29,193 nt of DNA from a virus, in IMG/VR virus record IMGVR_UViG_3300037882_000744, positions 1 through 29,193 of that record. The stretch is one strand, 5' to 3'. Shown piece by piece: positions 2,913 to 22,539 of the stretch (position 1 is its first letter; each line of letters starts with the position of its first letter). The notes beneath the pieces were generated by a model that saw only the letters and a list, made by a program, of their open reading frames with translations, did not search any database and was not told where the DNA came from. Position numbers and translations under genes: made by a program.

Positions 2913-2927
2913 AGTTAAGTCGGACAT

Positions 2928-2936
2928 TGATATAAT
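2928..2936 (+). promoter_or_regulatory. extended -10 promoter (TTGATATAAT class)
   Basis: TGATATAAT is a perfect TGnTATAAT extended -10, preceded by T to give the 10-mer TTGATATAAT that also starts two other units in this window. There is no -35 match 17 bases upstream. Counting from the -10 puts transcription start at about 2943, the A of the next gene's ATG. Confidence 0.65.
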
Positions 2937-2942
2937 ATTAAG

Positions 2943-3710
2943 ATGTCCGATATTAGTCTTAAAATAAAAGCTGAACAACTAGGTAAAACTTTAGAAAATC
3001 TATCCCCGTTGATAGAGGATGAAGTTAATAATGCCGTAAAGAATTTAGCCCACGCTGCCTATTCTGCGATGGTAGCTAAAATTCAAAGTATGGGCATTTC
3101 TGATAAATCAAGAAAAGACTATTTAAAAGCTTTGGACTTCCATAATTTAGGAGATGACTCATATCTAATCAGCTTAGACGGAGAATGGGCTAATAAATTA
3201 GAGAAGGGTTTTCCAGCCTACTCCATTAGAGATCAATTATTAAAGTCGTCCAAAAGTGTAGCCGTGGGATCAAGAGCTGGAGAGCCGTGGGTTAGAACTT
3301 CAGAAGACGGTCACAAATACGCAGCAGTCCCGTTTCAACATAAAGCTGGTCCAAAAGGTCCTACCGGAGACCTAGCATCTGATATCAAGAATCTTATGGC
3401 CAAAGGCGTTAATGGTGTGGTTCAACCTTTAGGTAAAGTTTATAAGAATGCAGAAGGTAAAGCCATCAACGGTAAAGTCGCATCAGTAAACTCTTCAGAT
3501 GTTCAGGACCCTAAATTAAAAGGACTAACTAAATATCAATATACTGGAAAGTCTGGTAAAGTGTCGTCAGTTTATATGACATTCAGGATGGTATCTGAGG
3601 CCGGTAAAGACTGGAAACATCCAGGACATAAAGGTTATCAACTTTTTAAAGAAGCTGAGGACTATATTGAACAAGAAATGGACCAGATACTAAAAACCCT
3701 GTTAAAATAG
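2943..3710 (+). CDS. head-tail connector / neck protein (HK97 gp10-like)
   Basis: A 255-aa protein that starts with a long amphipathic helix region (about 5-50). It then has an isoleucine/leucine strand region with 'WANKLEKGFPAYSIRDQLL' (about 81-100) and ends with WKHPGHKGYQLFKEAEDYIEQ. The pattern 'xxExG...I......HPG.K...F...A......' is what one sees in HK97-gp10-type tail-completion/neck proteins, which join the portal-connector complex to the tail. It is the first structural gene in the cluster and is directly followed by a probable tail-completion protein and the sheath. No Shine-Dalgarno is visible before the ATG. The start is supported by the expected N-terminal helix and by a promoter placed to give a leaderless transcript. 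The similarity is a pattern match, so the exact neck role is not certain. Confidence 0.65.
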   Translation: MSDISLKIKAEQLGKTLENLSPLIEDEVNNAVKNLAHAAYSAMVAKIQSMGISDKSRKDYLKALDFHNLGDDSYLISLDGEWANKLEKGFPAYSIRDQLLKSSKSVAVGSRAGEPWVRTSEDGHKYAAVPFQHKAGPKGPTGDLASDIKNLMAKGVNGVVQPLGKVYKNAEGKAINGKVASVNSSDVQDPKLKGLTKYQYTGKSGKVSSVYMTFRMVSEAGKDWKHPGHKGYQLFKEAEDYIEQEMDQILKTLLK

Positions 3711-3717
3711 GATTAAT

Positions 3718-4629
3718 ATGCAAGGATTTATAATTCCAGAATTAGTAATAGAGTCCATTATAAGAGATGGACTTCAAAACGTTAAAAATGATAAAACTAT
3801 CATTGATAGCATCTTTAATCAACTAATTAGAACATATAATGATCGTAAATATGGTGCAGCCGAGATAGCTAAAATTAAAGCCTTAGTTGATAAAGACATC
3901 CCAGTTCTCTATAGCTACGCACAAGTTGATGCCCAATCTATGTCATTTACAATCATGGTCGGATCGGATGAAGAAGATAAAAATAGAGCCCACCTTTCAG
4001 ATCACTACGAAGAACTAGAAAACGAAATAGTAGATCCGGTTAAACTACAAGCTCTCCACAGAGTGGATAATCTTCAAGTTTTGTCGTATGATACCCTAAC
4101 AGGTAAAATTATAGTCGACGACACCACAAATCTTTCCCCGGTCTATCGTGGAATGTTATATGTGGACTCTGTCGGAAACGAGTTTGATATTGTCACTGGT
4201 ATCAATAATACTCCTGGCGATAAATCATTTTATATTCAAAAAGGCGCAGAAGTAGACATCTCTAATACAGACGGTTTCATTAAGTCTAGCTTAGATTTCG
4301 AACGATATGAACTTAGAGGTGTAACCGGGAACGTCAGGTTAGTTATAGGATGTCATTCTAAAGATGCCCTGACGACAAAGTACATGTATATACTCTTAAA
4401 GTACTTCCTTTTATCTAGAAAAAAGGACATGATAAGTCGTAGTTTTTATGTATCCACGTATAGTGGGTCAGATTTTAATAGAGATTCCGAATACGTTGGA
4501 GATCAAGTTTATACTAGATTTTTGACTACGTCTGGTAAAGTTGATGATACCTGGAGATCAGACCAGATAGTATTAATTGATAATATAGAGGTAGTTGCTA
4601 CTCCTGTAGAGTGCCCAGATGACGAATAG
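3718..4629 (+). CDS. probable tail completion / terminator protein
   Basis: A 303-aa protein 7 bases after the neck-like gene and upstream of the sheath, where myophages keep neck and tail-terminator genes. The sequence is mixed alpha/beta and charged. Its best landmark is the C-terminal region KYMYILLKYFLLSRKKDM followed by 'SRSFYVSTYSGSDFNRDSEY', a helix-then-strand block that I associate with proteins in the tail-completion position of large myophages. I see no enzymatic motif. The call rests mainly on gene order. A second neck or connector component is an equally reasonable label. The ribosome site is weak (AGGATTAAT). Confidence 0.5.
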   Translation: MQGFIIPELVIESIIRDGLQNVKNDKTIIDSIFNQLIRTYNDRKYGAAEIAKIKALVDKDIPVLYSYAQVDAQSMSFTIMVGSDEEDKNRAHLSDHYEELENEIVDPVKLQALHRVDNLQVLSYDTLTGKIIVDDTTNLSPVYRGMLYVDSVGNEFDIVTGINNTPGDKSFYIQKGAEVDISNTDGFIKSSLDFERYELRGVTGNVRLVIGCHSKDALTTKYMYILLKYFLLSRKKDMISRSFYVSTYSGSDFNRDSEYVGDQVYTRFLTTSGKVDDTWRSDQIVLIDNIEVVATPVECPDDE

Positions 4630-4668
4630 CTTTTAAATGACAAACTATATTTTTAGATAGAATATGAC

Positions 4669-4896
4669 ATGAGCCGAAAAAATAAGAAGGCTGTAGCCGA
4701 TAAGATAGAAGAAAGTCAACCACAAGTTGAAAATAAAGTTGATTTGGTTACGTTTTCTGAGTTTTTCCAAGAATCTTTACGTAAAGGTTTAGTTAATTCT
4801 TGGCAAGATAAAGAGATTAAAACCTTCTTTAATGACATCGGTTTAACAGATAAAGAACCTTTAGATAAATATAAAGACGCGTTGGCAAAGTATTAA
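4669..4896 (+). CDS. small protein of unknown function before the sheath
   Basis: A 75-aa charged, soluble protein. The N-terminus is basic (SRKNKKAVADK) and the remainder reads as short helices (FSEFFQESLRKGLVNSW, KTFFNDIGL). No known domain was recognised. No Shine-Dalgarno precedes the ATG. The upstream 35 bases hold a promoter-like pair, ATGACA (4637-4642) then TAGAAT (4658-4663) with a 15-base spacer, and the segment resembles the promoter at 15548. Initiation may therefore be leaderless or weak. The tail sheath follows after 24 bases with its own strong ribosome site. Confidence 0.6.
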   Translation: MSRKNKKAVADKIEESQPQVENKVDLVTFSEFFQESLRKGLVNSWQDKEIKTFFNDIGLTDKEPLDKYKDALAKY

Positions 4897-4920
4897 AATT
4901 TCAAAGGTATAGGAGAAAAC

Positions 4921-6783: not shown

Positions 6784-6786
6784 TAA

Positions 6787-7275: not shown

Positions 7276-7277
7276 TT

Positions 7278-7685: not shown

Positions 7686-7694
7686 TCATTAAAT

Positions 7695-7761
7695 CCAGTA
7701 CTTTATTTACTGGTGTGGGCCTTCTACTCTCCCCCGTATAGATAGGCCCATTTTTATTTTT
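7695..7761 (+). terminator. tandem hairpin intrinsic terminator after the tube gene
   Basis: There are two stem-loops. CCAGTA (7695-7700) pairs with TACTGG (7708-7713) over a 7-base loop. TGGGCCT (7716-7722) pairs with AGGCCCA (7744-7750), and the stem can extend through TCTA/TAGA (7723-7726, 7739-7742). A T-rich run TTTTTATTTTT (7751-7761) follows. It is the GC-richest hairpin seen in the intergenic sequence and ends the sheath-tube transcript. It also meets the end of the minus-strand cassette, whose last stop overlaps the T-run, so it may act in both directions. Confidence 0.85.
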
Positions 7762-8573: not shown

Positions 8574-8605
8574 AAGTTCCTCCGTTAATTAATAGTAATA
8601 TAGTT

Positions 8606-9442
8606 TTATTCTTTAATTAATTTAATTTTAAGATTTTCGCATTGTTGTTTCAAAATGAGATGAAGATAATTAGGAGAAGCTTGACTTGTACCATTTCGAT
8701 AATCATATCCGCCGCCACGATTAGTAGAATACAAATTGAATCCATTCATAGAAACTGCTTTTGGATGAGTATTAGAAGATTGACAAACACCGTCTGGGCA
8801 CAGATTTTGTACTACAAAAAATCCGTTAGGGAGATACTGCATTTTTCCTCTAATCTTAAGACCGTCTATGTAACTAGCTGGATACTGAGGTCTTTTAGTT
8901 AAATCAAAACCTGTTATATCATCACCATTTCCAACAGCTACAGTAACTTTTGTACCTTTACGTTTAAGGAACTTTTGTAATGCTAGGAACTCAGAGAGCA
9001 CGGCTCCCTCACCAGACAAAGATATGTTAATATGAGTAAACTTATCCTCGATAGCTTTATTTATGCATCTGGTGGTATCCTCAGAAGAGGTAAAGCCTTT
9101 ACATGAGTAAATCTCCACATTATGACATAATGGATCTTTTAGATTTTCTCCTAAAGCTATAGTACCAGCTACATGAGTTCCATGGCCTAATTCATCTGTA
9201 TAATCAACTGAATCCTTTATGTATTTAACGTGGTTAACCAAATCCTTATGTGGATCAATACCTGAGTCAATTACCATTACCTTAAATATTTGAGCTTTTG
9301 AACTAATAAGATCATGAGTTTTCTTATCTACTTTGATAGGTTTTATAAGTTTAATAGTTTTGGTAACGGGTTTAAATATAGTCGGTTCTGAGGAACAAGA
9401 TCCAGAAAACAAGAAAATCGCTAATAAAATGAATAATTTCAT
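8606..9442 (-). CDS. subtilisin-like serine protease (S8), predicted lipoprotein
   Basis: A 278-aa secreted peptidase. The frame extends 11 codons further upstream, but AAAGGTGG directly precedes the ATG at 9442, and only that start gives a clean signal peptide: MKLFILLAIFLFSGSC with a lipobox-like FSGSC and Cys16 as the possible lipidated residue. The full S8 catalytic set is present: Asp59 (VMVIDSGID), His87 (GHGTHVAG), oxyanion Asn172 (VAVGNG) and Ser253 (NGTSQASP). The substrate-groove SLSGEG (141-146) is also seen. There is no long propeptide: about 30 residues separate the lipobox from the domain. It would act at the periplasmic or outer-membrane face. It leads an inverted cassette inside the tail genes and is not an expected virion part. 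Lipidation is uncertain because the lipobox is non-canonical at -1 and -3. Confidence 0.88.
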   Translation of the reverse strand: MKLFILLAIFLFSGSCSSEPTIFKPVTKTIKLIKPIKVDKKTHDLISSKAQIFKVMVIDSGIDPHKDLVNHVKYIKDSVDYTDELGHGTHVAGTIALGENLKDPLCHNVEIYSCKGFTSSEDTTRCINKAIEDKFTHINISLSGEGAVLSEFLALQKFLKRKGTKVTVAVGNGDDITGFDLTKRPQYPASYIDGLKIRGKMQYLPNGFFVVQNLCPDGVCQSSNTHPKAVSMNGFNLYSTNRGGGYDYRNGTSQASPNYLHLILKQQCENLKIKLIKE

Positions 9443-9461
9443 AATTACCACCTTTATATAA

Positions 9462-9491
9462 ATTTTACATATCAATTGTCCATAATTACAA
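9462..9491 (-). promoter_or_regulatory. putative promoter for the protease cassette
   Basis: On the minus strand TTGTAA (9491-9486) is followed after 18 bases by TAAAAT (9467-9462). The predicted start near 9455 leaves a 13-base leader carrying AAAGGTGG before the protease ATG. TTGATAT (9475-9469) lies inside the spacer and matches the element repeated on the other strand. The boxes are imperfect. A competing pair, TGGACA/TATAAA, would place the start inside the ribosome site and was not preferred. Confidence 0.35.
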
Positions 9492-9507
9492 CAATATTTT
9501 AAAGATG

Positions 9508-9572
9508 TATCATATTGATATTATTGCTGTTTCAAGGTGATCAGTAGTTGATATATTACGTATTGGGTAATA
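9508..9572 (+). promoter_or_regulatory. regulatory region with TTGATAT repeats and two dyads
   Basis: TTGATAT occurs at 9515, 9548 and 9582 (33 and 34 bases apart), with a further copy on the minus strand at 9475-9469. The first plus copy lies in the palindrome TATCA-TAT-TGATA (9508-9520). A second dyad, TATTAC (9554-9559) with GTAATA (9567-9572), overlaps the -35 position of the chaperone promoter. This arrangement between divergent units looks like tandem promoters or repressor sites. Confidence 0.45.
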
Positions 9573-9591
9573 AAGGTTAAGTTGATATAAT
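9563..9591 (+). promoter_or_regulatory. promoter for the tape-measure/baseplate unit
   Basis: TTGGGT (9563-9568), a 17-base spacer, then the extended -10 TGATATAAT (9583-9591). The predicted start is near 9598. The leader of about 20 bases contains GGAGA (9609-9613), 4 bases before the ATG at 9618. Of the TTGATATAAT-class promoters here it is the only one with a partial -35. Confidence 0.65.
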
Positions 9592-9617
9592 TGTCAATAG
9601 ATTAAGATGGAGATTCT

Positions 9618-10013
9618 ATGAAAAATAAGATAGATGAGCTACCAGATACAACTGGTGAGTTTTCAATCGATCTAATTGGATCGGTCACTAAAAAGAGATT
9701 TTTAGGTGAGTTTGTCTGTAAACTACCGACTATAAAAGATCAAGCTAAAATTGCGGTTTATGAATCATCTTTAAACGGTGAATTTCCAATGAATCTAAAC
9801 TCTGGGGTCTTAAACATTCATAAAAAAATAGCATATCTTAGATTCACTTTGATCGATATCCCCAAATTCTGGAGAGACTCTGATTTGGGTTATGATTTAA
9901 GAGATCCTAACATTATAGATGCCGTTTACACTGAAGTATTATCGTTTGAAGATCGATGGGTAAAAGATGTTTGGGGTGAGGAAGTAGTAGATGGACAAAA
10001 AGAAGAGAATTGA
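9618..10013 (+). CDS. tail assembly chaperone-like protein (first of pair)
   Basis: A 131-aa acidic protein opening the transcript that leads into the tape measure. It has a beta-rich first half (GEFSIDLIGSVTKKRFLGEF) and a 'FWRDSDLGYDLRDPNIIDAVY' segment that reads like the C-terminal helices of short chaperone-type proteins. No strict motif exists for this group. The call rests on position: two small overlapping genes immediately before the tape measure gene, as with lambda G/GT and many myophages. It overlaps the next ORF by 23 bases in the +1 frame. Confidence 0.55.
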   Translation: MKNKIDELPDTTGEFSIDLIGSVTKKRFLGEFVCKLPTIKDQAKIAVYESSLNGEFPMNLNSGVLNIHKKIAYLRFTLIDIPKFWRDSDLGYDLRDPNIIDAVYTEVLSFEDRWVKDVWGEEVVDGQKEEN

Positions 10014-10377
10014 TCCATATAAAAACCTCAAAACCTTAGGATATAATTTATCTCAATTACCGGATAAATATAATCTTAAAGAGCTAACTAGATACGCCAA
10101 ATTTTATTTGGCATCTAAAACTGGTACGTTGCTGAAAGATCCTATTTGGGATACTTATACAACTGAAGAGATGTTAACAGAATTTTACGCATATTTAATG
10201 GAAGACCGAGAATATAGATTAAGATTTGAACAAGAATCTGGAATTAAAGGCGAAGTTGATGACTTTGCTTCGTGGGCTGAAAAGAAGATTCAAGAAGATT
10301 CTAAAGTTAGAGACAAAGTTTTAGGACAAATGGAAGAAAACATAAAATTCAGTCCTAATGATGTAATTGGAGAATAA
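9991..10377 (+). CDS. tail assembly chaperone-like protein (second of pair)
   Basis: A 128-aa, mostly helical, charged protein (for example EEMLTEFYAYLMEDREYRLRFEQ and a long Glu/Lys helix to the end). It starts at an ATG inside the end of the preceding gene, with GAGG about 9 bases upstream, and ends 2 bases before the tape measure ATG. In-frame TAG codons sit directly before its ATG (9985-9990). It is therefore a separately initiated protein unless ribosomes shift within the 23-base overlap. Its role is inferred from position: binding the tape measure until tube assembly. Confidence 0.55.
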   Translation: MDKKKRIDPYKNLKTLGYNLSQLPDKYNLKELTRYAKFYLASKTGTLLKDPIWDTYTTEEMLTEFYAYLMEDREYRLRFEQESGIKGEVDDFASWAEKKIQEDSKVRDKVLGQMEENIKFSPNDVIGE

Positions 10378-10379
10378 CT

Positions 10380-12371
10380 ATGAGTGGTGGCGCAAGCATT
10401 AAAATTTCGGCAGATACCTCGCCCTTAAAAAAGTCTATATTAGATGTGAGTAAATCTATTAAAGATTTAAAAGGTAGCAAGGTTCAAATATTCTCAAACG
10501 AAGAACGTAAATTCATTAAAACTGAATTAAAAAAAGAAATCGTCTTAATGACTGCTAAACTTAAAGAGAATAGAGAAGAAATCTCTAAAATGGTGGCTGA
10601 ACAAAAGAAAATGACCAAAGGTTCTAAGGAAGAATTAGAAGCTAGAGAGAAGATTTTAAAAGCTTATAAAGTTCAAGCTAAATTAGCTAAAGAAATGGGT
10701 AATACAAAAGCGTCAGTTAAATCAGGTGGTGGTATCGATTCAGCATCTGGCGGAATGGGTGGATTACTTAGTGGATTAATGTCATTTGCTAGAATGATTC
10801 CAGGTTTAGGCGCAGTAGCTACTCTAGGTTATGGTGCTATGAAGGGCGTTCAAGCAAATGATCAATACAGAGCTGGGGTTCCAAATAGAAATAGACTTAA
10901 AGGTTTAGGTGTAGATGACGAAAACTTTGGATCAGCTAATGATCTAGCTCGCGTAGGATTAACTGAGCAAGATCTAATTCAAAGACGTATTGATGCAACT
11001 GCAACTTTAGGTAGAGATGGGACTTCAAACGAAACTGAAATGAGAAAAGCATCTTTTGAGCGAGCCTTTGGTTTAGAGGGTGGAACCATGACTGGAATAT
11101 CTAGTCAACTTAGATCCAGCGTTGGTGGACAAGGTGCCACAGAAGCTCAAATGAAATTACAAGCTTCTGTATTAGCGGCTGGAATTGAAGATGCAATTGG
11201 ACCCTATTTAGAATCTGCTACTCAATTATTGAGCTCTATAAACGAGACTGGTACAACCCAAACTGCAGAGATGACATCTTTATTGGCCCAATTAACTAGA
11301 GATGGTGAGCGCACTCCAGAGTTAATGGCTAAAACCTTTGCATCAATTAATGATGCGGTAAAAGGTTCTTCTGGAGAAGCTAATGCGTTCCTACAAACTG
11401 CGTACGCTAGATCAGGAATTGGTGGCGGAACATTAGGTGGAACTAAGTTTGCTCTTTCCTCTGGTGGAATTATGGGTCAAGACCGGGCATCTTTAGAAAA
11501 GCGTGGTTATAATAAAGATCTTTTAGATAACATGGATAAGTCTGGAATGTTCACTGGTGTGGGAGAACGTTCGTCTTCAATACTAGAACAATTTAGAAAA
11601 TCAGGTGGATTACAAGCTGGTGAAAAGGTTTCAGATATTAAAGATACAGATCGTATGGTCGGTATGGGAAATCTAGCCAATAATGTGTTTGGAACTAAGG
11701 GCGATCAAGGCTTCGATGTTCTAATGATGTTAGAAAAGGTCCAAAATAAACAAATGAGTCGTAAACAATTCGACGATAAACTCAAAGAACTCCAAGAAGG
11801 TAAAGACCCATCTCTATCAAGACTCGACAAAATAAATAATACTTTATCCGGGAATACAGAACAGTTAAGTAACATAAATAATAATTTAATGGAAATGCTA
11901 GGTAAAGAAGCAGTTCAACCGTTTAACGAAATGAAAAGAATAGATAACGAAGGTATTATAGGAGTTAAAAATGTAGCTGGAGCAATTAATGATTCTGGAG
12001 TAACTAGAGCTGTTGGTGATGCAGGAGCTGGTGCTGGAAGAGCTGTAAATTCAGGTAAAATGGGTAGCTGGATGTATGATAAGTTTGGTGGCGGAGATAT
12101 GGATAAAATCCAAAACGACTACTGGACAAGCGAAGCTGGGATTATAAGAACTGCTAAAGATCGTAGAGATAAAGGAACAGGCTTCGTTGGAAAATCAGAT
12201 GAAGAAATAGAACAAATGGTCAAAAAGTCTTTAAATAAAGATAAAGCCCCAACTGCAAAAGAGATTGGAAAAGAAGTAGCTAATGCGCTAATCGAGAGTC
12301 CTATTGTAAATAAAAATAGTATGACTCTCCAAATGCCAGATGGAACACTCACAGACCGGACGGGTAAATAA
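10380..12371 (+). CDS. tail tape measure protein
   Basis: A 663-aa protein that sets tail length and is later ejected ahead of the DNA. It begins with a tape-measure-like 'ASIKISADTSPLKKSILDVSKSIKDLKG' and then a long Lys/Glu coiled-coil (about 40-110). A glycine-rich hydrophobic patch follows (about 119-158: GGMGGLLSGLMSFARMIPGL, GAVATLGYGAMKG), of the kind that may enter the host membrane. The remainder is Gly/Ala/Ser-rich and alpha-helical. With the usual ruler of about 0.15 nm per residue it predicts a tail of about 100 nm. It lies between the chaperone-like pair and the hub gene, and its last base is the first base of the next ATG (TAATG). Confidence 0.85.
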   Translation: MSGGASIKISADTSPLKKSILDVSKSIKDLKGSKVQIFSNEERKFIKTELKKEIVLMTAKLKENREEISKMVAEQKKMTKGSKEELEAREKILKAYKVQAKLAKEMGNTKASVKSGGGIDSASGGMGGLLSGLMSFARMIPGLGAVATLGYGAMKGVQANDQYRAGVPNRNRLKGLGVDDENFGSANDLARVGLTEQDLIQRRIDATATLGRDGTSNETEMRKASFERAFGLEGGTMTGISSQLRSSVGGQGATEAQMKLQASVLAAGIEDAIGPYLESATQLLSSINETGTTQTAEMTSLLAQLTRDGERTPELMAKTFASINDAVKGSSGEANAFLQTAYARSGIGGGTLGGTKFALSSGGIMGQDRASLEKRGYNKDLLDNMDKSGMFTGVGERSSSILEQFRKSGGLQAGEKVSDIKDTDRMVGMGNLANNVFGTKGDQGFDVLMMLEKVQNKQMSRKQFDDKLKELQEGKDPSLSRLDKINNTLSGNTEQLSNINNNLMEMLGKEAVQPFNEMKRIDNEGIIGVKNVAGAINDSGVTRAVGDAGAGAGRAVNSGKMGSWMYDKFGGGDMDKIQNDYWTSEAGIIRTAKDRRDKGTGFVGKSDEEIEQMVKKSLNKDKAPTAKEIGKEVANALIESPIVNKNSMTLQMPDGTLTDRTGK

Positions 12372-13975
12372 TGGCTAATAAAGAGTATAAATTTTCAAAC
12401 GAGACGGAACATCTTTATCCACAGTGTAAAGTTGTTTTGTATCCATGGAAAGAAATTTTAAATAATCCAGAGTTATCAGATGAAAAATTATCCCAATCTG
12501 GACGTTTGGATATTTCAAGCCAAATTCAATCGGTTACGTTCTCAAAGAATATGGGGTCTCCCGCTGGGTCGTTCTCTATAGATCTAACTAATTCACCTAA
12601 TTACGGGACAAACGATTGGAAAGATATAATTAAAAGAGGATACTGGTTAGTTATTTATATGTCTCAAGATGGAGATCTGAGAATGAATCCGTCTGTAGGA
12701 CCTAATTTAGCTAAAAACAAGATGTCAGAAGCCAAAAGAATTCGATGCATTGGATATGTGGATCGCGTATCTGTCAAAATGTCAGTAGAAGAGAATAGAT
12801 CTATAAATGTTGGATTTACTGTTACTGGTCGCGATTTTGGCGCCGTATATGATGATACAAACATATGGCATAACATGTTCCAGTTCGATAAAATTATATT
12901 AGATTCTATTTCACAAACAAAGCTTAATATAACTGGAAACGTTAGAATTCACGAAGCTATTAAATTAATACATGATCTTTTTTATTATCCTTTAAATATT
13001 CCAGGTGCAAAAGTAAACGATAACAAGAGCTTATTATCTATAGGTCTTCAGTGGTTAATGCCTAAAGAGATGATATCTGATATAGGGTTCAACTTATCCA
13101 AACTTCCGAAGGGTACTTTTTGGGGAACTCTTCCTGGAGTTTTCGAACCAGAGGTTACTGGAGCTGGAATTGCAATAGAAAAACCAGGGGATTATTTAAC
13201 TGGAAATGCTTGGCAACAACTAAAAAGACTTAGTATCCCCCAATATCACGAATTATTTTGTGAAACAACTGACGAAGGAAAGCCTAAATTAACGTTTAGA
13301 CCTATCCCTTGGGGTATAGACCAATCTAAATATCCAATAAACGCTCCAAATATTAAAATGTATAAAGACCTATCTCCAGTAGTAACAGTTCCAGCTGTGC
13401 AACTGTATGATGTAGATTTAGGTGAGGATGATAATTCTAGATACAACTCTTTTTTAGCTACTGTCTCTACAGGACTAATCAACACCGAAGATAACACGTC
13501 TCTTTTATTAGGCAGAGGTTTTCCAAAGAATAACACAGCATCTATAAAACGTCACGGTTTTAGACCTATGCATATAACCGTAGACTCAATAGTAAAGAAC
13601 GAAGAATTAGCTAATGGTAGTGCTGACTTAAATCAATTAGTTGAATTTAATGAAGTACTGTACGATTATTGGAATAACGCCGTATATGCTGAATCAGGAT
13701 CGATTAATAAAAGAGGATCCAACGATGTCAAAATCGGAAAAGTAATGAAATTTAGAAATGATGTTCCGTATCTTTCTACAAAAAGATATTACATCGAAGG
13801 ATATGTAGACACTTTTATGGTCGGAGATAAGAGAGAACGTTCGTGGACTCAAACTGTCATCCTAACTAGAGGCTTCGAAGAAGCTGATTTAAAATCTAAA
13901 GTTGGATTTTCGGTTAGGAACACAGAATTTAAAGGTTCTGGTGAATATACCAAAGGTTCCGGGGAGAATAACTAA
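12371..13975 (+). CDS. baseplate hub protein (gp27 / P2 gpD-like)
   Basis: A 534-aa protein after the tape measure and before the spike, the standard place of the hub that joins tube to spike. The N-terminal region carries 'SSQIQSVTFSKNMGSPAGSFSIDLTNS' (about 50-75), the strand pair with 'N.GSPAG.FSI' found in hub proteins. Further on are 'RCIGYVDRVSVKMS' (about 121-134) and 'NVGFTVTGRDFGAVYDDTNI' (about 145-165), the 'V.GRD' element of this family. The C-terminal half holds 'RYYIEGYVDTFMVGDKRERSWTQTVILTRG', the closing barrel. It should trimerise, providing the 3-fold to 6-fold adapter. Stop and next ATG overlap by one base (TAATG). Confidence 0.82.
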   Translation: MANKEYKFSNETEHLYPQCKVVLYPWKEILNNPELSDEKLSQSGRLDISSQIQSVTFSKNMGSPAGSFSIDLTNSPNYGTNDWKDIIKRGYWLVIYMSQDGDLRMNPSVGPNLAKNKMSEAKRIRCIGYVDRVSVKMSVEENRSINVGFTVTGRDFGAVYDDTNIWHNMFQFDKIILDSISQTKLNITGNVRIHEAIKLIHDLFYYPLNIPGAKVNDNKSLLSIGLQWLMPKEMISDIGFNLSKLPKGTFWGTLPGVFEPEVTGAGIAIEKPGDYLTGNAWQQLKRLSIPQYHELFCETTDEGKPKLTFRPIPWGIDQSKYPINAPNIKMYKDLSPVVTVPAVQLYDVDLGEDDNSRYNSFLATVSTGLINTEDNTSLLLGRGFPKNNTASIKRHGFRPMHITVDSIVKNEELANGSADLNQLVEFNEVLYDYWNNAVYAESGSINKRGSNDVKIGKVMKFRNDVPYLSTKRYYIEGYVDTFMVGDKRERSWTQTVILTRGFEEADLKSKVGFSVRNTEFKGSGEYTKGSGENN

Positions 13976-15054
13976 TGTCTAGACGTAGATGGAATGGGTC
14001 ATATCAATCTAGCAACACTCCCACATATAACAAACCTGGGGTTAAAAGAGATGACTATGCTCTCTATAGAGCTATGATTACTGAAGTCCTTTATGTGGAT
14101 GACCCTTCTAATATTTCAAAGAATAGCCAAAACCCTGAAGTATTATATAGTGCTGTTATTTTAGGTGGAATGGAAGAGGGAAATGTTCTCTCTAATTGTA
14201 GATTAGCCTCGTGGTTGGGCGGAAATACTAATTATTCAGAGAGAACATTAGTACCTACATCTAAAGATTTGTCTAAGGTTAGATTATCTCAACATGATGG
14301 AGACATAGTTTATATTGAATTCAACCAAGGTCATGATGGATATCCAGTAATCATAGCTCTAGCTAAAGGATTATCAAATAAAGTAGCAGCAACTAAAGCT
14401 GATGGACCTAGAGTATTAGAAGAATATAATGGATTAATTAGAAATATAAATAATAAAGGCGAGTTGATTACCACTATGAAAAGTGGATCTGTTAAAGACG
14501 GAAGATTTGTCTCCCAAGATTCGTTCTTAATAAAAGAGGAATGGTTATCAGACGAAAAAGTAAATTTATCTTTTAAAACTGGTTTAAAAATTACGCACGA
14601 CGGCAAAAATGATATATCAACTACCACATATAAAAATGGATTAGCTCTAACACAAAACGGTAAAGACGATAAAACCACTGTTCTATTTAAGGGTGGTTTA
14701 GCTATAACCGCAAATGGAAAAGATGACGTCTACACTTTAGTTACCAAAGAGGGTGCCTCAATAAAAATTGATGGTAAAAATGATGTAATTCATTTAAAAG
14801 ATAAAGGAACTGGAGCTCTAAAGATCACTGGAGAAAAAGTGGCAATGGGAGCTGCTTCTGCAGAACTTCTAGAACAGATAAGTCAACACCTCCAACAAGT
14901 TATTACGTTTGCTAATTCAGAAGCGAACCACGTCCATTTAGGAAATTTAGGGTATCCTACTGCAGTTCCAACTACTACTGCTAACTGGACAGCTTTAGGA
15001 ACTGCCTTAACTGGTATAAAAGCGTTAGTAGACGGAATTAAAGGTACGTTGTAA
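13975..15054 (+). CDS. baseplate spike protein (gp5/gpV-like) with beta-helix repeats
   Basis: A 359-aa spike. An OB-fold-like part (about 30-135: ALYRAMITEVLYVDD, SAVILGG, DIVYIEFNQGHDGYPVIIALA) is followed by a linker. Four tandem repeats of about 19 residues then run from 203 to 278 (DNA 14581-14808), with consensus GLxITxNGKDDxxTxxxK; Gly, Asn/Asp and Lys recur in register. Such repeats build the trimeric beta-helix needle in gp5-type spikes. The C-terminal part (about 279-359) is helical, unlike the sharp iron-bound tip of P2 gpV, and has one HVHLG. No lysozyme domain is present, so wall digestion must be supplied elsewhere. It overlaps the next gene by 1 base. Confidence 0.82.
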   Translation: MSRRRWNGSYQSSNTPTYNKPGVKRDDYALYRAMITEVLYVDDPSNISKNSQNPEVLYSAVILGGMEEGNVLSNCRLASWLGGNTNYSERTLVPTSKDLSKVRLSQHDGDIVYIEFNQGHDGYPVIIALAKGLSNKVAATKADGPRVLEEYNGLIRNINNKGELITTMKSGSVKDGRFVSQDSFLIKEEWLSDEKVNLSFKTGLKITHDGKNDISTTTYKNGLALTQNGKDDKTTVLFKGGLAITANGKDDVYTLVTKEGASIKIDGKNDVIHLKDKGTGALKITGEKVAMGAASAELLEQISQHLQQVITFANSEANHVHLGNLGYPTAVPTTTANWTALGTALTGIKALVDGIKGTL

Positions 15055-15542
15055 TGGCTATGAACCCAACGGATTTAGCTAGCGAGATAGCATCTGCTTT
15101 GGGTTATCCAGGGAATGTAACTATCCAGGTTCAGGGATTTGCCCAAGGAATCATAGAAGAAATAACTCAAAACGGGGTCGCTTCTACTGGAGCTACTCCA
15201 AGTCCTCATACAATTTCTGCTATCACCGGTGCAAGTATGGCCTCTAAAGTAGCCAACTACGCTGGATACGGTTATGTGACTCCTACGCTTTTGGGCTATT
15301 GCTCAGGTATAGTTGCCCACATTACAAGTTCAGCGGTTATTTCATACACAGGTCCTGGAGGACTTCCGCCGATGTTCTTCTTAGGAGGTACTATTTCTGG
15401 ACTTTCTGGAGCTGCTCTAGCCATACAAGTAGCTTCATCGGCTGGATACCCTGGAGTTACTCCCCAGTTATTGGCCAAATGCACTGCAATAGCAGACCAT
15501 ATAATGAACAACGGTGAAGCTAATAATGGAAGTATAACATAA
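15054..15542 (+). CDS. baseplate-associated protein made of three repeats
   Basis: A 162-aa protein composed almost entirely of three tandem copies of a module of about 40 residues, at 8-47, 62-100 and 122-160. The pattern is 'AxxVAxxAGYpgVTPqLLgxcxgIxxHIxxnGxxxxg'. The GY pairs fall at residues 17, 71 and 131. Small-residue-rich helices alternate with Gly/Pro turns. No signal peptide or enzyme motif is seen. It is directly downstream of the spike, overlapping it by one base, and is the last gene before a new promoter at 15548. I recall similar repeat proteins beside spike genes in other phages but know no proven function. Confidence 0.72.
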   Translation: MAMNPTDLASEIASALGYPGNVTIQVQGFAQGIIEEITQNGVASTGATPSPHTISAITGASMASKVANYAGYGYVTPTLLGYCSGIVAHITSSAVISYTGPGGLPPMFFLGGTISGLSGAALAIQVASSAGYPGVTPQLLAKCTAIADHIMNNGEANNGSIT

Positions 15543-15547
15543 CTAAT

Positions 15548-15556
15548 TGATAAAAT
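15548..15556 (+). promoter_or_regulatory. extended -10 promoter, variant TTGATAAAAT
   Basis: TGATAAAAT differs from the TGATATAAT box by one base and has the same upstream T. There is no -35 match. The predicted start near 15563 gives a leader of about 20 bases with GGAGA (15573-15577) before a GTG start. The gap between the flanking genes is only 41 bases. Confidence 0.5.
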
Positions 15557-15583
15557 ATAGTCATATTTAGATGGAGATTTTAG

Positions 15584-17728
15584 GTGGCTTTTGGAATTAC
15601 AGATCTTGTAAATAATATATCTGCTTCTGTTGACGGTTTAATAGCCGACTTTAAAGGTGAATCGTCTAAAGTTATTCAATATCATCAAGGTGAGGCTGAA
15701 TTAAGAAACATCCAGTCTCAACTAAATCCTGAGAGTTGGTCAAAGTTAAGTTTCCCGTACACTTTTGCCATTATAAATCTTAAAAAACCAAATGATAACG
15801 GTGGATTCTCAGACTTTCAATTACCGTTGGCTCCACAATCTATTAATCAAAAAGAACAACCTGCTATCTCCATAAAACCATCTCAAGGTGGAACAACGGT
15901 AAATCATAACGGCGTTGGATACGGTACTTTAAATATTCAAGGTACTACTGGTATTGCACCATTTCGTGGTGAAGGTGGAGTTAATAGAAAAACTGGTGAA
16001 GCGATCTTCCAACCTAAAGATTTAAAACATAAATCTGGTTACGAAGTCTTTATCCATCTAAGAAATTGGTTTCGTAGTTATTATCAGTGGAAATCTAAAC
16101 AAGGTCAATCTGGAAAAGACTATAGACTTATTTTTAAGAATTATAAAGATGGTGAGTTTCTAATAGTAGAACTTGAAGATTTTGAAATGGATCGACAAGC
16201 TGCTAAGCCATTTTTATATGAATACAAGCTAGAATTTAAGATTTTGTCACATTTCTCTTTTCAAAATCCAGCATCTAAAACAGGATTTTTAGCTGATACG
16301 GAAGCCTTCATCCAAAATGCATTAGATAAAATAAATACGGCAAAAGGGGTATTCCTAAGAACTCAGGGTATTTTACGACAAATAGAAGCTACGTATGATG
16401 CCTCGGTCTTAGAGCCTTTAAGACAAAGTACTTTAGCAATAAAAGCTTTACTGGGCGTACCCTTAGTAGCCGCTGATATCTCCAGTAGAACTATTGTGAA
16501 CACTGTTTCTACGGCTGGAGCTTTGTTGATTACTGCAAGAGAGGCATTAAATTTTGCCACATTAGGTGCAACAGGTCAATCGAGTACGTTATCAGAGATT
16601 GATGGTCTATTGGACAAAAGATTGTTTGGATCTAAAAACACACTTAAAAAGACTTTTGATGCTGTAAATTCTGAGGTTAAATTAAAGGGTTCTGGTGGTT
16701 TAATGAAACTTGGTGGCCTAACCATGAAAATGGACATAGGTCAATTTCCGGAGAAAACAGTTAGTTCCACTGTAACTGAACAAAACAGATCATTAGAACT
16801 TCCTAGAAACTTTTATGAAGAAGCTATTAAATCATTAGAGAGAGTTAAACAAAACGCTGAGGATTTCTTTAATCTAGGATCAACTCAATATGATCAAATT
16901 TTTGACAGAACTTCTACGTTAAATGCTGATTTCACTAAAACAGTAACTAATGATGAATATGATATGTTAAATGCTTTTAATGAAGCGGTTACCGGTTTAA
17001 ACTTATTACTTTCAACAACTGATCTATTCAAGTCTAATTTTGATGACAGAATTAATGACATGGTTACAAGATTCAATGGAAATATTGAGTTATTTGCCAA
17101 CCAAGCCGTAAAACAGATGAAATTAGAAAAAGGTTTGACTTTAGAAAGATTGGCACAACAAGAATTAGGTGATTCTACTAGATGGGGTGAAATAGTAGAA
17201 GTTAATAACCTAAAAGCTCCGTATGTTTCAGAAGACCCTAACGAATCTAGAGACGGAGTATTAAAGCCTGGATCTAATATCTTAATACCAGTTCCGTTGT
17301 TAAACGGCTTTAGTCAAGTTCCTGTAGGTAAAGTAAATAAACTGACAAAAAATATGTCAGAATTAGAACGTAGTCTTGGAACTGACTTAAAAATTAATAG
17401 AGATTTTGATTTAGTTTTAAGTTCATCTGGAGATTTTGAATTAATAGCTGGCGCTGACAACATGGCACAAGGTACAATACTTAAGTTAAGTTATGAGCCT
17501 GGAGAAGTTATGAGTCATCCAGAAATTGGATCTGGCTTAATTGTTGGTAAAAAGTTTCCCCCAGTAGAAGAGATAAAGGATAGAATTACTACATCTCTTT
17601 TACAGGATAACCGAATCAACAAGATTTCAGATTTATCACTATTGAGACAATCTGGAGCTCTATATATTAGTTTTAATTTATTTGTAAAACAAGTGGATAT
17701 TGCTATCCCTGTGAAGATAAAGGTGTAA
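15584..17728 (+). CDS. baseplate wedge fusion: gp53/LysM-type region plus gp25-like domain
   Basis: A 714-aa protein with a GTG start (15584), 6 bases after GGAGA. Residues 50-230 are a beta-rich domain (SFPYTFAIINLKKP, GTLNIQGTTGIAPFRG, YEYKLEFKILSHFSF), like the N-terminal domain of LysM-bearing baseplate proteins. A helical middle (about 240-505) follows. Residues 509-570 form a LysM-like module (LEKGLTLERLAQQELGDSTRWGEI...NNL...LKPGSNILIPV). Residues 593-714 read as a gp25/GpW-type wedge domain: LGTDLKI, DFDLVLSSSGDFELIAGADNMAQGTILKL, GEVMSHPEIGSGL, then the closing strands. In T4, gp53 and gp25 are separate wedge proteins, whereas here they lie in one chain. The stop is one base before the BaseplateJ-like gene start. 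Confidence 0.78.
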   Translation: MAFGITDLVNNISASVDGLIADFKGESSKVIQYHQGEAELRNIQSQLNPESWSKLSFPYTFAIINLKKPNDNGGFSDFQLPLAPQSINQKEQPAISIKPSQGGTTVNHNGVGYGTLNIQGTTGIAPFRGEGGVNRKTGEAIFQPKDLKHKSGYEVFIHLRNWFRSYYQWKSKQGQSGKDYRLIFKNYKDGEFLIVELEDFEMDRQAAKPFLYEYKLEFKILSHFSFQNPASKTGFLADTEAFIQNALDKINTAKGVFLRTQGILRQIEATYDASVLEPLRQSTLAIKALLGVPLVAADISSRTIVNTVSTAGALLITAREALNFATLGATGQSSTLSEIDGLLDKRLFGSKNTLKKTFDAVNSEVKLKGSGGLMKLGGLTMKMDIGQFPEKTVSSTVTEQNRSLELPRNFYEEAIKSLERVKQNAEDFFNLGSTQYDQIFDRTSTLNADFTKTVTNDEYDMLNAFNEAVTGLNLLLSTTDLFKSNFDDRINDMVTRFNGNIELFANQAVKQMKLEKGLTLERLAQQELGDSTRWGEIVEVNNLKAPYVSEDPNESRDGVLKPGSNILIPVPLLNGFSQVPVGKVNKLTKNMSELERSLGTDLKINRDFDLVLSSSGDFELIAGADNMAQGTILKLSYEPGEVMSHPEIGSGLIVGKKFPPVEEIKDRITTSLLQDNRINKISDLSLLRQSGALYISFNLFVKQVDIAIPVKIKV

Positions 17729-17729
17729 T

Positions 17730-20700
17730 ATGGCATTAGTCTTAAAGTCGGAAAGACAAATACAAGCAGAGATATTGGCAAGATTAATATCTCAATTAGG
17801 TCTAAACGATATCAATCCCGGATCAGTTATTGATGTCCTCACACAAGCTGTCTCTCAACAAGATTTTGCTCTTTATTACCAAATTGCACAAGTATCTAGA
17901 CTTGTCGATATTGATTCTTTAACTGGAGATGATTTAGATAATAAAGCTTTCGAATATGGTTTAGAAAGATTAACGGCTGAAAAAACTAAAGGCCGAATTA
18001 CAATTTTAAGACCTTCTACGTTTGTTAAAATATCTACCGCATTTTATGCCGGCTCACCTTCTCCTATTGTGGGAGACACTCAAATAGATGTAAACGACGC
18101 GTCAAACGTTTTAATAGCCTCTTCTGGAACTCTTATATTAGGTAGAGGTACAAACAACGAAGAGCAAGTTACATATTCTGTAGCTCCTGTAAACAACGTA
18201 AACTTTTGGAGATTTACATTAGATAATCCTCTCACAAAAGATCACGCTGTTGAGGAAACAGTAATTCTCAGACAAGGTAGCGATGAAGTAATTTTAGCGG
18301 GCACTACTGTAGTAGTTCCTGCCACTGGTTCAAATGCTGAAATTCAATTCTCAGTAGATAATGATACGGTATTATTGGCTGGTGAGGATAAAGTAATAAA
18401 TGTAGAAGTGACCGCAGTTGAGGCTGGTTCTTTAGGAAATATTCCCGTAGGAGCTATCGACGGAGAAGCTGCTTTTAATTCTGCCCCGTTTCCTGGAGCA
18501 AGGGCTAGAAACGACGTAAAGTTTACTACTGGAAGAGATCGTGAAGACGATGATGAACTAAGAGATCGAATTAAAAACTATGTTCAAGGTATATCTAAAG
18601 CTGTTAAACAAGCTATTTTAAACGCCATAGTTGGATTAGTTGATCCTGAAACTGCAAAACGTGTTGTATCTGCTTCAGTAGTTCTTCCTGTTGACGAAGT
18701 TGGCGATGTAAAAGTATATATTGATGATGGTACAGGTTTTGAACCATCGTTTGAATCTCAAGGTTTTGAAGTGGTATTAGCATCCTCCACTGGTGGAGAA
18801 CAACGCCTTCAGGTAGATAAATTTCCAGTATCCAAAGCTCAAATAGAATCTAACTCTCAAGAAGCATATAACATGTCTTCTGGAGCATTGACGCTAATTA
18901 CTGAAGTTGGAATTCTTCAAGAAACAATTACTTTTAATCCAGCTGATTTCAGATTTCCTGACATAGCTACAGCTGAAGAAATAGTAGCTGCTATTAACGA
19001 TAAATCCACTTTATTAGAAGCTAGAACTTCACAAGTTGGTAAACGAATTTTAATAACAGCTAAAGCTGACATTAATGAATCTATTAGAATTGTTGGTGGA
19101 ACTGCTAACGCTATTATTAACTTTCCTTTAGACAGAAAAGACACTATTAATCTTTATATTGATGACGAAAAGAAATCTAAAGATGGTGAAACGGCTAAAC
19201 TTGATTCTGGAAACTTAGCCCCTTATAACTTAGCAGCAATTGGTCCATTCCCACAATTACTAAATATAGTAATCGATGGTAAATTGGCAAACCCACAAGT
19301 AGCCACTTTTAACTTTGCAGATGCCTCTGATGTGAACGCTGTTACAGCTCAAGAGATCTGTAACGTGTTAAACAGAGACCTTGTAGGTATAGTCGCAAGT
19401 CCAATCAACGATAATACAAGAGTTAGAATTGAATCACTAACTAAGTTGTCTAACAAGTCTAAACTTAATGTAACTGGTGGAACTCTCAATAATGCCGTAA
19501 ATGGTTTAAATATGTCGTTGGTAGAATTCGTTGGAATAAACGGAGACTACAAATTTAACAGAGAATTGGGAATTATAGAATTAGCACAACCTTTAGGGAT
19601 AAACAAACTAGTAACTTTAGGTTCACTATTCACTAGAGCTAAATTGAGAGCGTCGTCTTCTGAATTATATTCTCCTACAAACGGAAGTACTTTGGTTATC
19701 GAAGTTGATGGCGCAGCAGATCAAACTATTACATTTGATGCAACGTTTGCAGCAGGTAAAACAGCCCAACAAACAGCTGATTTTATTAATGCACAACTTT
19801 CTGGTGCAACTGCAATTGTTCGTGAAATTGGTGGACTTAATTATTTAGAGATAAACACGAACACTTATAAAACTAATGGTACTTTAGAGATTAAAGGAAC
19901 ATCTACGGCTAACGCGTTCTTTGGATTTACGTTAGATACACAGATCCAATCTAGTGAGCCTAATAAATCTCATGTAGTTTCAGGTCAACCTGGTCCATAT
20001 GATTTTTCAGAAGCTGATTCATTAGTTACGGTAGTGGATAATGATATCGTAAACAACACTTTTGCTATTTTAATGAATTATCAAGCATCAGTGTCGTCTG
20101 CCTCGGCTCCTAATATATTCTCTGATTCTGGTTTAGGTGGAGTATTCCCTAACGCTATAGATTTAGTCAATTATTATGTAGCGTTTACCTCTGGACTAAA
20201 TACCTTAAATGGTGTAGTAACCACCGTACAAGATCAAGGCTTAGGAATATTTAGATATACTTTTAATCCAGTTCCACCTTTGTTTGCGTCATTTGCAGTT
20301 GTAGGATCACTATTTAAAATAGAAGATTTGGCTGATTCTGAAAATAACGGTCATTTCGTAGTAGCTGCCTCAGGCGCAAACTATGTAGATGTGTTAAACT
20401 TAGACGGTGTAAATGCTTCAGCTCAGACTGGCTCTGGTACTTTAAGTCAACGTAGACAAATCTCAGCTTATAACCAATTGACTGGTCAAATAACTACGTC
20501 TTCTGGATTTTCTAATACTCCTGTAGCATCTGATGATTTTATATTGATCCCGTCTACTATTACTAATTTAGTTAAATATATAAACAATACTAAAATTACA
20601 TCTTTTACATTAAAAGGTGAAGCTGTAGGAGTCGATAATAATACTAAATTACAATTGACTTCTAAATCTCAAGGTTCTGATGGTTACATTCAAGTAACTG

Positions 20701-21146
20701 GTGGAAATGCTAATCGTGAGTTACAATTCAATACCCTTTCAGTTAGAGGTATCCAAGCTTATAGTTACTGGGTTGGATTATTGGCATTAGTTCACAAAAC
20801 TATTTACGGTGACGATTCTGACTTGGCTTCTTATCCAGGAGTAGGTGCTGCTGGAGTTGTATTTAGAGTTTTAGCTCCTACTGTTAAAAACATCGAGGTT
20901 GAGTTAGATATAACTCTTGAAGAAGGTATATCTATTGCTGCGGTTGAAAATGATGTTAAATCTGCGGTATCTGGATACATCAATACTTTAGGCGTTGGAG
21001 ATGATGTAATCATTGAACGAATCAGAGCCGCTGTAATTGCGGTCCCTGGAATTATAGATGTGGTTATCAATACTCCAACGGTAAATATAGCTATAGCGGA
21101 CAACGAAAGAGCAAATGTCGCAGACCCAGACATTTTGATCGGATAA
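17730..21146 (+). CDS. baseplate wedge protein, BaseplateJ/gp6-like, very long
   Basis: A 1138-aa wedge protein. The N-terminus (about 1-80) has 'LARLISQLGLNDINPGSVIDVLTQ', 'DSLTGDDLDNKAFEYGLERL' and 'KGRITILRPS', the usual start of J/gp6 proteins. At about 230-300 is the hallmark 'AGSLGNIPVGAI' followed by 'TTGRDREDDDELRDRIKNYV'. The C-terminus (about 1040-1138) has the closing J-type domain 'LEEGISIAAVENDVKSAVSGYINTLGVGDDVIIERIRAAVIAVPGI'. Between about 340 and 1030 is a beta-rich stretch not found in compact J proteins (P2 gpJ about 300 aa, T4 gp6 about 660 aa). It is Asn/Thr/Ser-rich and may be several Ig-like domains. Ribosome site AAAGGTG. Confidence 0.85.
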   Translation: MALVLKSERQIQAEILARLISQLGLNDINPGSVIDVLTQAVSQQDFALYYQIAQVSRLVDIDSLTGDDLDNKAFEYGLERLTAEKTKGRITILRPSTFVKISTAFYAGSPSPIVGDTQIDVNDASNVLIASSGTLILGRGTNNEEQVTYSVAPVNNVNFWRFTLDNPLTKDHAVEETVILRQGSDEVILAGTTVVVPATGSNAEIQFSVDNDTVLLAGEDKVINVEVTAVEAGSLGNIPVGAIDGEAAFNSAPFPGARARNDVKFTTGRDREDDDELRDRIKNYVQGISKAVKQAILNAIVGLVDPETAKRVVSASVVLPVDEVGDVKVYIDDGTGFEPSFESQGFEVVLASSTGGEQRLQVDKFPVSKAQIESNSQEAYNMSSGALTLITEVGILQETITFNPADFRFPDIATAEEIVAAINDKSTLLEARTSQVGKRILITAKADINESIRIVGGTANAIINFPLDRKDTINLYIDDEKKSKDGETAKLDSGNLAPYNLAAIGPFPQLLNIVIDGKLANPQVATFNFADASDVNAVTAQEICNVLNRDLVGIVASPINDNTRVRIESLTKLSNKSKLNVTGGTLNNAVNGLNMSLVEFVGINGDYKFNRELGIIELAQPLGINKLVTLGSLFTRAKLRASSSELYSPTNGSTLVIEVDGAADQTITFDATFAAGKTAQQTADFINAQLSGATAIVREIGGLNYLEINTNTYKTNGTLEIKGTSTANAFFGFTLDTQIQSSEPNKSHVVSGQPGPYDFSEADSLVTVVDNDIVNNTFAILMNYQASVSSASAPNIFSDSGLGGVFPNAIDLVNYYVAFTSGLNTLNGVVTTVQDQGLGIFRYTFNPVPPLFASFAVVGSLFKIEDLADSENNGHFVVAASGANYVDVLNLDGVNASAQTGSGTLSQRRQISAYNQLTGQITTSSGFSNTPVASDDFILIPSTITNLVKYINNTKITSFTLKGEAVGVDNNTKLQLTSKSQGSDGYIQVTGGNANRELQFNTLSVRGIQAYSYWVGLLALVHKTIYGDDSDLASYPGVGAAGVVFRVLAPTVKNIEVELDITLEEGISIAAVENDVKSAVSGYINTLGVGDDVIIERIRAAVIAVPGIIDVVINTPTVNIAIADNERANVADPDILIG

Positions 21147-21150
21147 ACTC

Positions 21151-22482
21151 ATGAGTAATGCATTAAAGAGATATCAAAGTACACTTCCAAAAACGTTTAA
21201 TCCTGAGCAAAACAGGGTTATATACGCTCTTTTATATGCAATTGCTTTATCAGATGATGATGTTGAAAGCGCCATTCAAGAAGCTAAGAAACAGTTATTT
21301 GTTAGAACTGCTACTGGAAGAAATTTAGATAATTTAGCTAATTCTTTAGGAGTAGAACGCCCACCTACTTTAGGATTAACAGATCAAGAATTTCAAGAGT
21401 TGATTCCAAATTTAAGTTTAAAGCCTAAAAACATTAGAAAAGCTTTCTACGATACGGCTGATGTATTTTGGGGTCAATCATTCTCCAGAGCTAATATCAC
21501 TTCTAGAAATGTAGCACCGTTTAATGTCTCTCTAGGCGACTCAATTACAGTCCAAATAGATCAAAGAGAAATTCAAATAGTAAAAGTTTTAGCTGGTGAT
21601 ATAGCTATAAACGGCGCAGCGACTGCAGAAGAGATTCAAAAGATTCTCTCTAAAATAAATGGAGTAGTTGTATCGATAAGAGAAGATGCACTGACTTCAG
21701 ATAAGTCTATTAACATTCAAACCACAACTCCAGGACCTACTGGATCTATTACAATTATAGATTCTACGATGATTGGTATATCAAAATTAGACTTTGATTT
21801 AGGTACTTTTGATATTTTAAATTTAGATCAACGCGTTGCGATTTATAATATAAACCAAAACGAATTATTGATTGAAATTCCAGCAATAGTTCCAGCCCTG
21901 AGAAGAACCTTAAAAGGAAGTCATCACTTCCATTTAGACTCTACGCTAGAACCTCCTAGAGGAATTACTCAAAGTGTGTGGTCAGGATCGTTTCTATTCA
22001 ATCCAAATGGTAGTGTGAATACATTTACTATCACTAAACAACGAGCTTTGTTACAACAAATCGTCTCAAAAGGAGACGTTTATACAAGTGTAGCCGTTGA
22101 TAATACCTCGACTTTTGATTCACCCTCTGGTGAACTAATATTTGGTTTCGGCACTTCAGAACAAGAGGGTCCTATAAAATACAGAGGTATTCCGAATAGT
22201 GCGACTATACTTTTAGATCCAAGCTATACTTTTAAATTCAACCATTCAGCTGGAGCGTCTATAAATGTTATTTCTAAGCAAGAACCGTATGTTCCAGTAC
22301 GTTCTGGTAAAGATTTAGCTATCTATTTAACATCTCCATCTGGAGCTAGAGAGATAGTTCAGAAGATTTTAGAGACTTTAGCGTCAGCTGGAATCATTAT
22401 TAAGTTTAAAATATTAGCTCCTAAATACAAGTATTTGCAGGACAATCCTTATATTTCAGAAGATGACGCACCTGGCGAATAA
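21151..22482 (+). CDS. baseplate wedge protein (tail protein I / gp7-position)
   Basis: A 443-aa protein following the BaseplateJ-like gene by 4 bases, where phages place tail protein I or gp7-type wedge-to-fibre adapters. The N-terminal helical region carries 'VIYALLYAIALSDDDVESAIQEAKKQLFVRTATGRNLDNLANSLGVERPP'. The 'TA.G..LD.LG..LGV.RP' pattern is shared by J-neighbouring wedge proteins. The middle is beta-rich (about 110-230 and 255-390) and the C-terminus returns to a helix 'GAREIVQKILETLASAGIIIKFKIL'. It should connect wedge to tail fibre; the next gene is the fibre. The exact T4 or P2 equivalent is not settled. Confidence 0.7.
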   Translation: MSNALKRYQSTLPKTFNPEQNRVIYALLYAIALSDDDVESAIQEAKKQLFVRTATGRNLDNLANSLGVERPPTLGLTDQEFQELIPNLSLKPKNIRKAFYDTADVFWGQSFSRANITSRNVAPFNVSLGDSITVQIDQREIQIVKVLAGDIAINGAATAEEIQKILSKINGVVVSIREDALTSDKSINIQTTTPGPTGSITIIDSTMIGISKLDFDLGTFDILNLDQRVAIYNINQNELLIEIPAIVPALRRTLKGSHHFHLDSTLEPPRGITQSVWSGSFLFNPNGSVNTFTITKQRALLQQIVSKGDVYTSVAVDNTSTFDSPSGELIFGFGTSEQEGPIKYRGIPNSATILLDPSYTFKFNHSAGASINVISKQEPYVPVRSGKDLAIYLTSPSGAREIVQKILETLASAGIIIKFKILAPKYKYLQDNPYISEDDAPGE

Positions 22483-22504
22483 CCAAAGCCAACTTCCTTA
22501 AAAT

Positions 22505-22513
22505 TGATATAAT
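22505..22513 (+). promoter_or_regulatory. extended -10 promoter of the tail-fibre unit
   Basis: TGATATAAT, again inside the exact 10-mer TTGATATAAT, with no -35 match upstream. The predicted start is near 22520. GGAGA (22531-22535) precedes the ATG at 22540. A second partial copy, ATTGATATTGG, lies at 22522-22532. No terminator hairpin separates it from the previous gene, so it probably adds to readthrough transcription. Confidence 0.65.
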
Positions 22514-22539
22514 CTATACAGATTGATATTGGAGATTAA

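Follow-up and report, generated by a model that had tools for sequence, protein, structure and literature searches.

Gene Content of the Window

The window analysed here, 29,193 bases in length, spans one complete virus record of the searchable collection and represents a fragment of an uncultured myovirus. The left part of the window carries genes for dUTPase, thymidylate synthase and thymidylate kinase. The remaining features of interest, among them tail and baseplate genes and a truncated sigma factor gene, are collected in Table 1. Judged by its position, the protein encoded by gene 22540 is likely to be a virion component of the tail or fibre. A gene for a subtilisin-like (S8) protease (8606-9475, minus strand) lies in a minus-strand block within the virion gene cluster, and there is a weak match to it at the same place in the relative G001.

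A nucleotide search against cultured phages gave no match to the window. Protein searches returned distant relatives only, with 32% identity to the baseplate of Myxococcus phage Mx1 and 22-24% to SPO1-type sheaths. The relatives used for comparison were drawn from IMG/VR at 42-70% protein identity, the chief one being G001, a contig of 114 kb.

Table 1. Genes, promoter boxes and leader elements of the window, in order of position (+1, predicted transcription start)
Position	Strand	Feature	Remarks
1..351	-	N-terminal 117 aa of a sigma70-family factor	GTG start at 351; cut by the contig end
2927..2936	+	TTGATATAAT promoter box	-10 hexamer 2931-2936; ends 6 nt before ATG; predicted +1 at 2943
2943..3710	+	phrog_16819 gene	Unknown function; predicted leaderless transcript
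4921		Tail sheath gene	
9515..9557	+	Near-copies TTGATATTAT (9515) and TTGATATATT (9548)	Spacing of 33-34 nt; upstream of 9582
9582..9591	+	TTGATATAAT promoter box	Promoter of the 9618 operon; predicted +1 ~9598
9605..9614	+	AGATGGAGAT	Leader / Shine-Dalgarno element
9618..10013	+	Tail assembly chaperone-like gene, phrog_1038	Heads operon 9618-15542
12371		Tail lysin-like gene	
15547..15556	+	TTGATAAAAT promoter box	Predicted +1 ~15563
15569..15578	+	AGATGGAGAT	Leader / Shine-Dalgarno element
15584..17728	+	Baseplate protein gene, phrog_975	Opens baseplate operon 15584-22482
17730, 21151		Further baseplate genes	
22504..22513	+	TTGATATAAT promoter box	Predicted +1 ~22520
22531..22536	+	GGAGAT	Shine-Dalgarno
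22540..28341	+	Gene for a 1933-aa protein	No family assigned; orthologs in relatives

Copies of the Box in the Window

An initial annotation of this DNA described three exact copies of a 10-mer, TTGATATAAT, and a single variant, TTGATAAAAT, each in a short intergenic gap at a gene front and on the coding strand. All four were recovered at the positions claimed. Each is on the plus strand, in a short gap that precedes a tail or baseplate gene, and no exact copy of TTGATATAAT is present on the minus strand of the window. The same annotation had put the chance expectation at less than one copy. In dinucleotide shuffles 0.30 copies are expected, and three copies were reached in none of 100 shuffles. 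Copies with one mismatch number 8 against 7.8 expected, so that by count alone there is no excess over chance.

It is intergenic position, and not the one-mismatch count, that decides the reality of the signal in the window. All four occurrences of TGATAWAAT fall on the plus strand within the 1110 intergenic bases, which amount to 3.8% of the window, and there is none in the coding sequence of the window or on its minus strand. Among 2000 Markov-simulated versions of the intergenic DNA of the window, none contained TTGATATAAT more than once. Equal frequency inside genes, which the annotation had named as counting against a promoter class, is therefore not seen; the box is nearly absent from coding sequence.

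Two further arrangements were noted around the boxes. Three TTGATAT-type copies occupy one 143-base gap (9515-9591), the last alone being a full box, and this array could represent tandem promoters or a binding array. The first two of these copies had been passed over in the initial annotation. An inverted repeat, CGGACAT / ATGTCCG (2921-2949), surrounds the -10 box at 2931 and overlaps the start codon of gene 2943; it is not evident by eye in the upstream sequences of the relatives.

Conservation in Relatives

Footprinting of the regions upstream of orthologs of genes 2943, 9618, 15584 and 22540 found TGnTAWAAT in 29 of 44 (6/16, 8/9, 9/10 and 6/9, respectively). Coding windows of matching length carried it in 13 of 2233 cases. 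The motif was found upstream of none of the orthologs of the intra-operon genes 4921, 9991, 10380, 12371, 13975 and 21151. Five of 19 orthologs of gene 7278 do have a box upstream, and some relatives therefore have an additional promoter there.

An independent test was provided by JAJVIE010000002.1 (G017:C4; 100,447 bases, 34% GC), the single match in a genome collection, which was fetched after the motif had been defined. This contig holds 11 exact copies of TTGATATAATT, where Markov genomes would lead one to expect 0.37. Every one of them is intergenic and on the phage coding strand, at a coding fraction of 0.91. The copies precede the orthologs of 2943, 6787, 9618, 15584 and 22540, as well as the gene upstream of the terminase, the portal gene and the block ahead of the major capsid protein; the remaining boxes front three genes without an assigned function.

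These results bear on the reading of the boxes as chance AT-rich matches without promoter function. One-mismatch matches are indeed no commoner than in shuffles, as such a reading would have it, but it is refuted by the orthologous conservation in diverged relatives and by the placement of all 11 copies in G017:C4, and chance may be set aside with near certainty. The box is a real promoter signal of an uncultured phage family, located ahead of virion genes.

It was also observed that G017:C4 (loci L143-L148) sits in a 2.7-Mb metagenome-assembled genome (MAG) labelled Candidatus Omnitrophota, of which the other contigs sampled have a GC content of approximately 64%, compared with 34% for the phage contig. 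The contig has probably been misbinned, and the label of the MAG therefore names no host for it. That the remainder of this MAG lacks the motif was dropped as evidence, since the GC difference makes this lack uninformative.

Promoter Architecture

Alignment of 37 sites, which were picked by similarity to TGnTATAAT so that the -10 logo is partly circular, gives T-T-G-A-TATAAT-T, with all of the information contained within TTG.TATAAT.T and none farther upstream. The TGn directly 5′ of TATAAT has its T-15 in 35 and its G-14 in 34 of the 37 sites. The extra T before the TG, regarded in the initial annotation as a conserved feature, is only moderately conserved (24/37), about equal to the T that directly follows TATAAT (25/37).

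Neither the missing -35 nor the contrast with coding windows is affected by the circularity of the logo. Over the 37 sites, at spacings of 16-18, no -35 element was detected, with a best match of 2.73 against 2.54 in shuffles (p = 0.11). A -35-like hexamer had been described as lacking at three of the four sites in the window. It is lacking at all four, where the best match to TTGACA is 3/6 over spacers of 15-19. An extended -10 promoter class without a -35 is strongly supported by the orthologous conservation, the rarity in coding sequence and the lack of -35 information.

Certain k-mers, such as ACTTAACTT, are mildly enriched upstream, and a fixed upstream element of this kind was rejected as their position is not fixed. 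The late -10 of phage SPO1 is GATATT; it was discarded as a lead, the conserved hexamer here being TATAAT. Canonical sigma70 promoters at the gene fronts of G001 and G017:C4 amount to scattered 10-of-12 matches only, and for this reason a separate early promoter class is not established.

Transcript Starts and Leaders

Transcription would be expected to start seven nucleotides past the box. Where the box ends six nucleotides before ATG, as it does at gene 2943 and others, the transcript would therefore start at the A of the start codon, resulting in a leaderless mRNA. Within 412 kb of family sequence, TATAAT-N6-ATG/GTG opening a frame of at least 50 codons occurs 30 times, against approximately 2 for each neighbouring spacing. 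The 6-nt spacing between the box and the ATG of gene 2943 recurs at its orthologs (L038, L040, L041, L042, L049, L055 and G017:C4). This excess predicts leaderless mRNAs, that of gene 2943 included. In L013 (near 2162) and L039 (near 9106), a promoter of the predicted leaderless type comes directly after a terminator-like hairpin with a T-run.

The other box promoters would give a leader of approximately 10-40 nt, often ending in a Shine-Dalgarno element of the form AGAT..GGAGAT. Of 29 orthologs of the leadered members 9618, 15584 and 22540, 15 have this element ahead of the start codon, and it was not found upstream of the other gene families of the window. Genes that are not promoter-proximal more often have GGAGA followed by some other base.

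Timing of Use

Where a function could be assigned to the fronted genes of the window, G001 and G017:C4, it is in most cases one in virion assembly. None of the 11 boxes of G017:C4 falls in its replication block (21.4-44.6 kb), which makes up 23% of the contig (p ~0.06 by simple proportion). G001 was scanned with a matrix built leaving out the G001 sites. In this genome the box precedes portal, tail and baseplate genes, and also a ribonucleotide reductase gene (61998), while a weaker variant is located before a small gene of the replication block.

The box could instead be a general promoter that is used throughout infection, its absence from the replication genes of one relative being a matter of sampling. 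The ribonucleotide reductase and replication-block copies of G001 fit this proposal, as does a probability for G017:C4 that is only borderline. It is opposed by the predominance of virion-assembly genes among the assigned genes in all three sequences, and is considered unlikely. It concerns timing, and is compatible with either of the readers of the box discussed below. The description of the class as “late” in the initial annotation is a reading of gene content only; on this ground, late use of the box is likely.

The Phage Sigma Factor

The 117-aa fragment encoded at the left end of the window shares 54% identity (E = 5e-38) with the sigma of G012 and 34% (E = 3e-14) with the full-length sigma of G001. 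Its region 1.2, taken alone, is below the Pfam cut-off. The fragment ends before domains 2-4, with its own recognition residues off the contig. A sigma70-family protein with region 2 was found in 7 of 13 relatives searched, several of these with region 4, and G017:C4 also encodes a sigma70-family protein. The G001 sigma is 463 aa in length and its alignment with RpoD extends through region 4. Against the Pfam curated cut-offs, its regions 2 (69 bits) and 4 (43 bits) lie above, and its regions 3 and 1.2 below.

The region 3.0 glutamate of sigma70, E458, contacts the extended -10. At the equivalent position G001, G005 and G012 carry F or W, a puzzling change given that the box retains its TG. 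This combination of TG-containing promoters with F or W was recorded for the phage sigma relatives at L012 (10400-11791), L112 and L115. In region 2.4, T440 is replaced by R in G001, G005 and G012 and by K in G017:C4.

Studies of sigma70 have identified R584, E585 and R588 (E. coli numbering) of region 4.2 as the residues that read the -35 (PMC2613000). The -35-contacting motif TRERIRQ is altered to TKMGVRL in G001 and TKMGVKV in G005, giving K, M, R and K, M, K, respectively, at the three equivalent positions. The sigmas of G008 and G011 retain the -35 contact residues, and G008 uses the box despite this.

Copies of TGATAWAATT (forward/reverse) number 7/0 in G005, 5/0 in G008, 0/5 in G011 and 5/1 in G001, all of which are sigma-bearing, compared with 0/0 in G007, 0/0 in G014, 2/0 in G006 and 3/2 in G009, which are records without a region-2 sigma. 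Strand-consistent boxes go with a region-2 sigma and few or unbiased boxes with its absence, though this pattern follows lineage; being confined to one lineage, the co-occurrence of sigma and motif is not independent evidence.

As the box is a consensus extended -10, the primary sigma of the host could read it unaided. The reader might then be the host sigmaA holoenzyme, with a phage factor that blocks sigma domain 4 and the phage sigma serving other promoters. This would silence -35-dependent promoters and spare those of the extended -10 type, in the manner of P23-45 gp39 or T4 AsiA. That gp39 acts in this way has been reported for P23-45, whose middle and late promoters are of the extended -10 type (PMC7403470), and the sigmas of the clade that retain their -35 contacts are in keeping with it. 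However, the clade has a full-length sigma of its own, the sigma-bearing relatives carry a strand-consistent box, and no gp39- or AsiA-like protein was noticed; host sigmaA with such a blocking factor is the main rival, but a less likely one. The sigma genes, the altered -35 contacts and the strand-consistent boxes together favour the phage-encoded sigma, which probably reads the box, a view held with moderate confidence.

Comparison with Known Systems

The middle and late genes of Thermus phage P23-45 are transcribed from extended -10 promoters that need no -35 (PMC7403470), an architecture shared by the box promoters of this clade. In P23-45 it is gp39 that displaces domain 4 of the host sigmaA, whereas this clade encodes a whole sigma70-family factor. 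The late promoters of T4 have a -10-type element that is read by the phage sigma-family protein gp55, and no upstream or -35 element (PMC2988020). They resemble the present system in both the architecture without a -35 and the phage-encoded sigma-family protein. In contrast, gp55 resembles sigma70 in domain 2 only and acts with gp33 and the gp45 clamp, while the sigma of the relatives has recognisable regions 2 and 4 (1.2 and 3 being weaker) and the box is TTGATATAATT. The clade sigma is not gp55-like, because its region 4 is recognisable.

Phages phiEco32 and 7-11 also combine a phage sigma with a short motif upstream of structural genes, a motif that in its long form follows a TG (PMC4331800). 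Their core motif is TGATGT, and the relationship of their sigma to the sigmaA family is described as no more than distant. At some late genes of Staphylococcus phage K there is a -10 or an extended -10 but no -35 that can be aligned (PMC11598898); the late promoter and factor are undefined there, whereas here one consensus is conserved across relatives. As for leaderless starts, a -10 region adjacent to the open reading frame has been linked to leaderless mRNA in Deinococcus-Thermus (PMC12340547). Those are bacterial genes, whereas here the genes are those of phages, in whose genomes leadered GGAG starts are used as well. What is new in the present system is the consensus, the predicted leaderless subset with its leadered counterparts sharing AGAT..GGAGAT, and a full-length sigma that in two relatives has an altered region 4.2. 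Neither the sigma gene at the left edge of the window nor the leaderless spacing at 2943 had been described in the initial annotation.

Proposed Mechanism and Significance

It is proposed that T(T)GATAWAATT serves as the promoter of one transcription class in this uncultured myovirus clade. The element would comprise TG, one base and TATAAT, usually with a T on both sides and no -35, and would sit ahead of virion-assembly operons. It would most likely be read by the host core RNA polymerase together with the phage’s own full-length sigma70-family factor. A more specific proposal, put forward tentatively, is that this factor gave up -35 reading in region 4, with the virion genes placed on -10-only promoters and key ones leaderless.

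From sequence alone, an uncultured myovirus family thereby gains a promoter definition, a likely reader and start-site predictions. Some large phages that are in culture, phage K among them, still have undefined late promoters. The box can serve as a marker for virion operons in contigs from metagenomes. Should the phage sigma prove to be the reader of the box, that factor would represent a natural sigma70 factor with regions 2 and 4 that has lost -35 recognition. The conserved leaderless starts make the translation of leaderless phage mRNA testable. Should the tentative proposal above be true, a phage sigma switch would be coupled to a switch in the mode of translation initiation.
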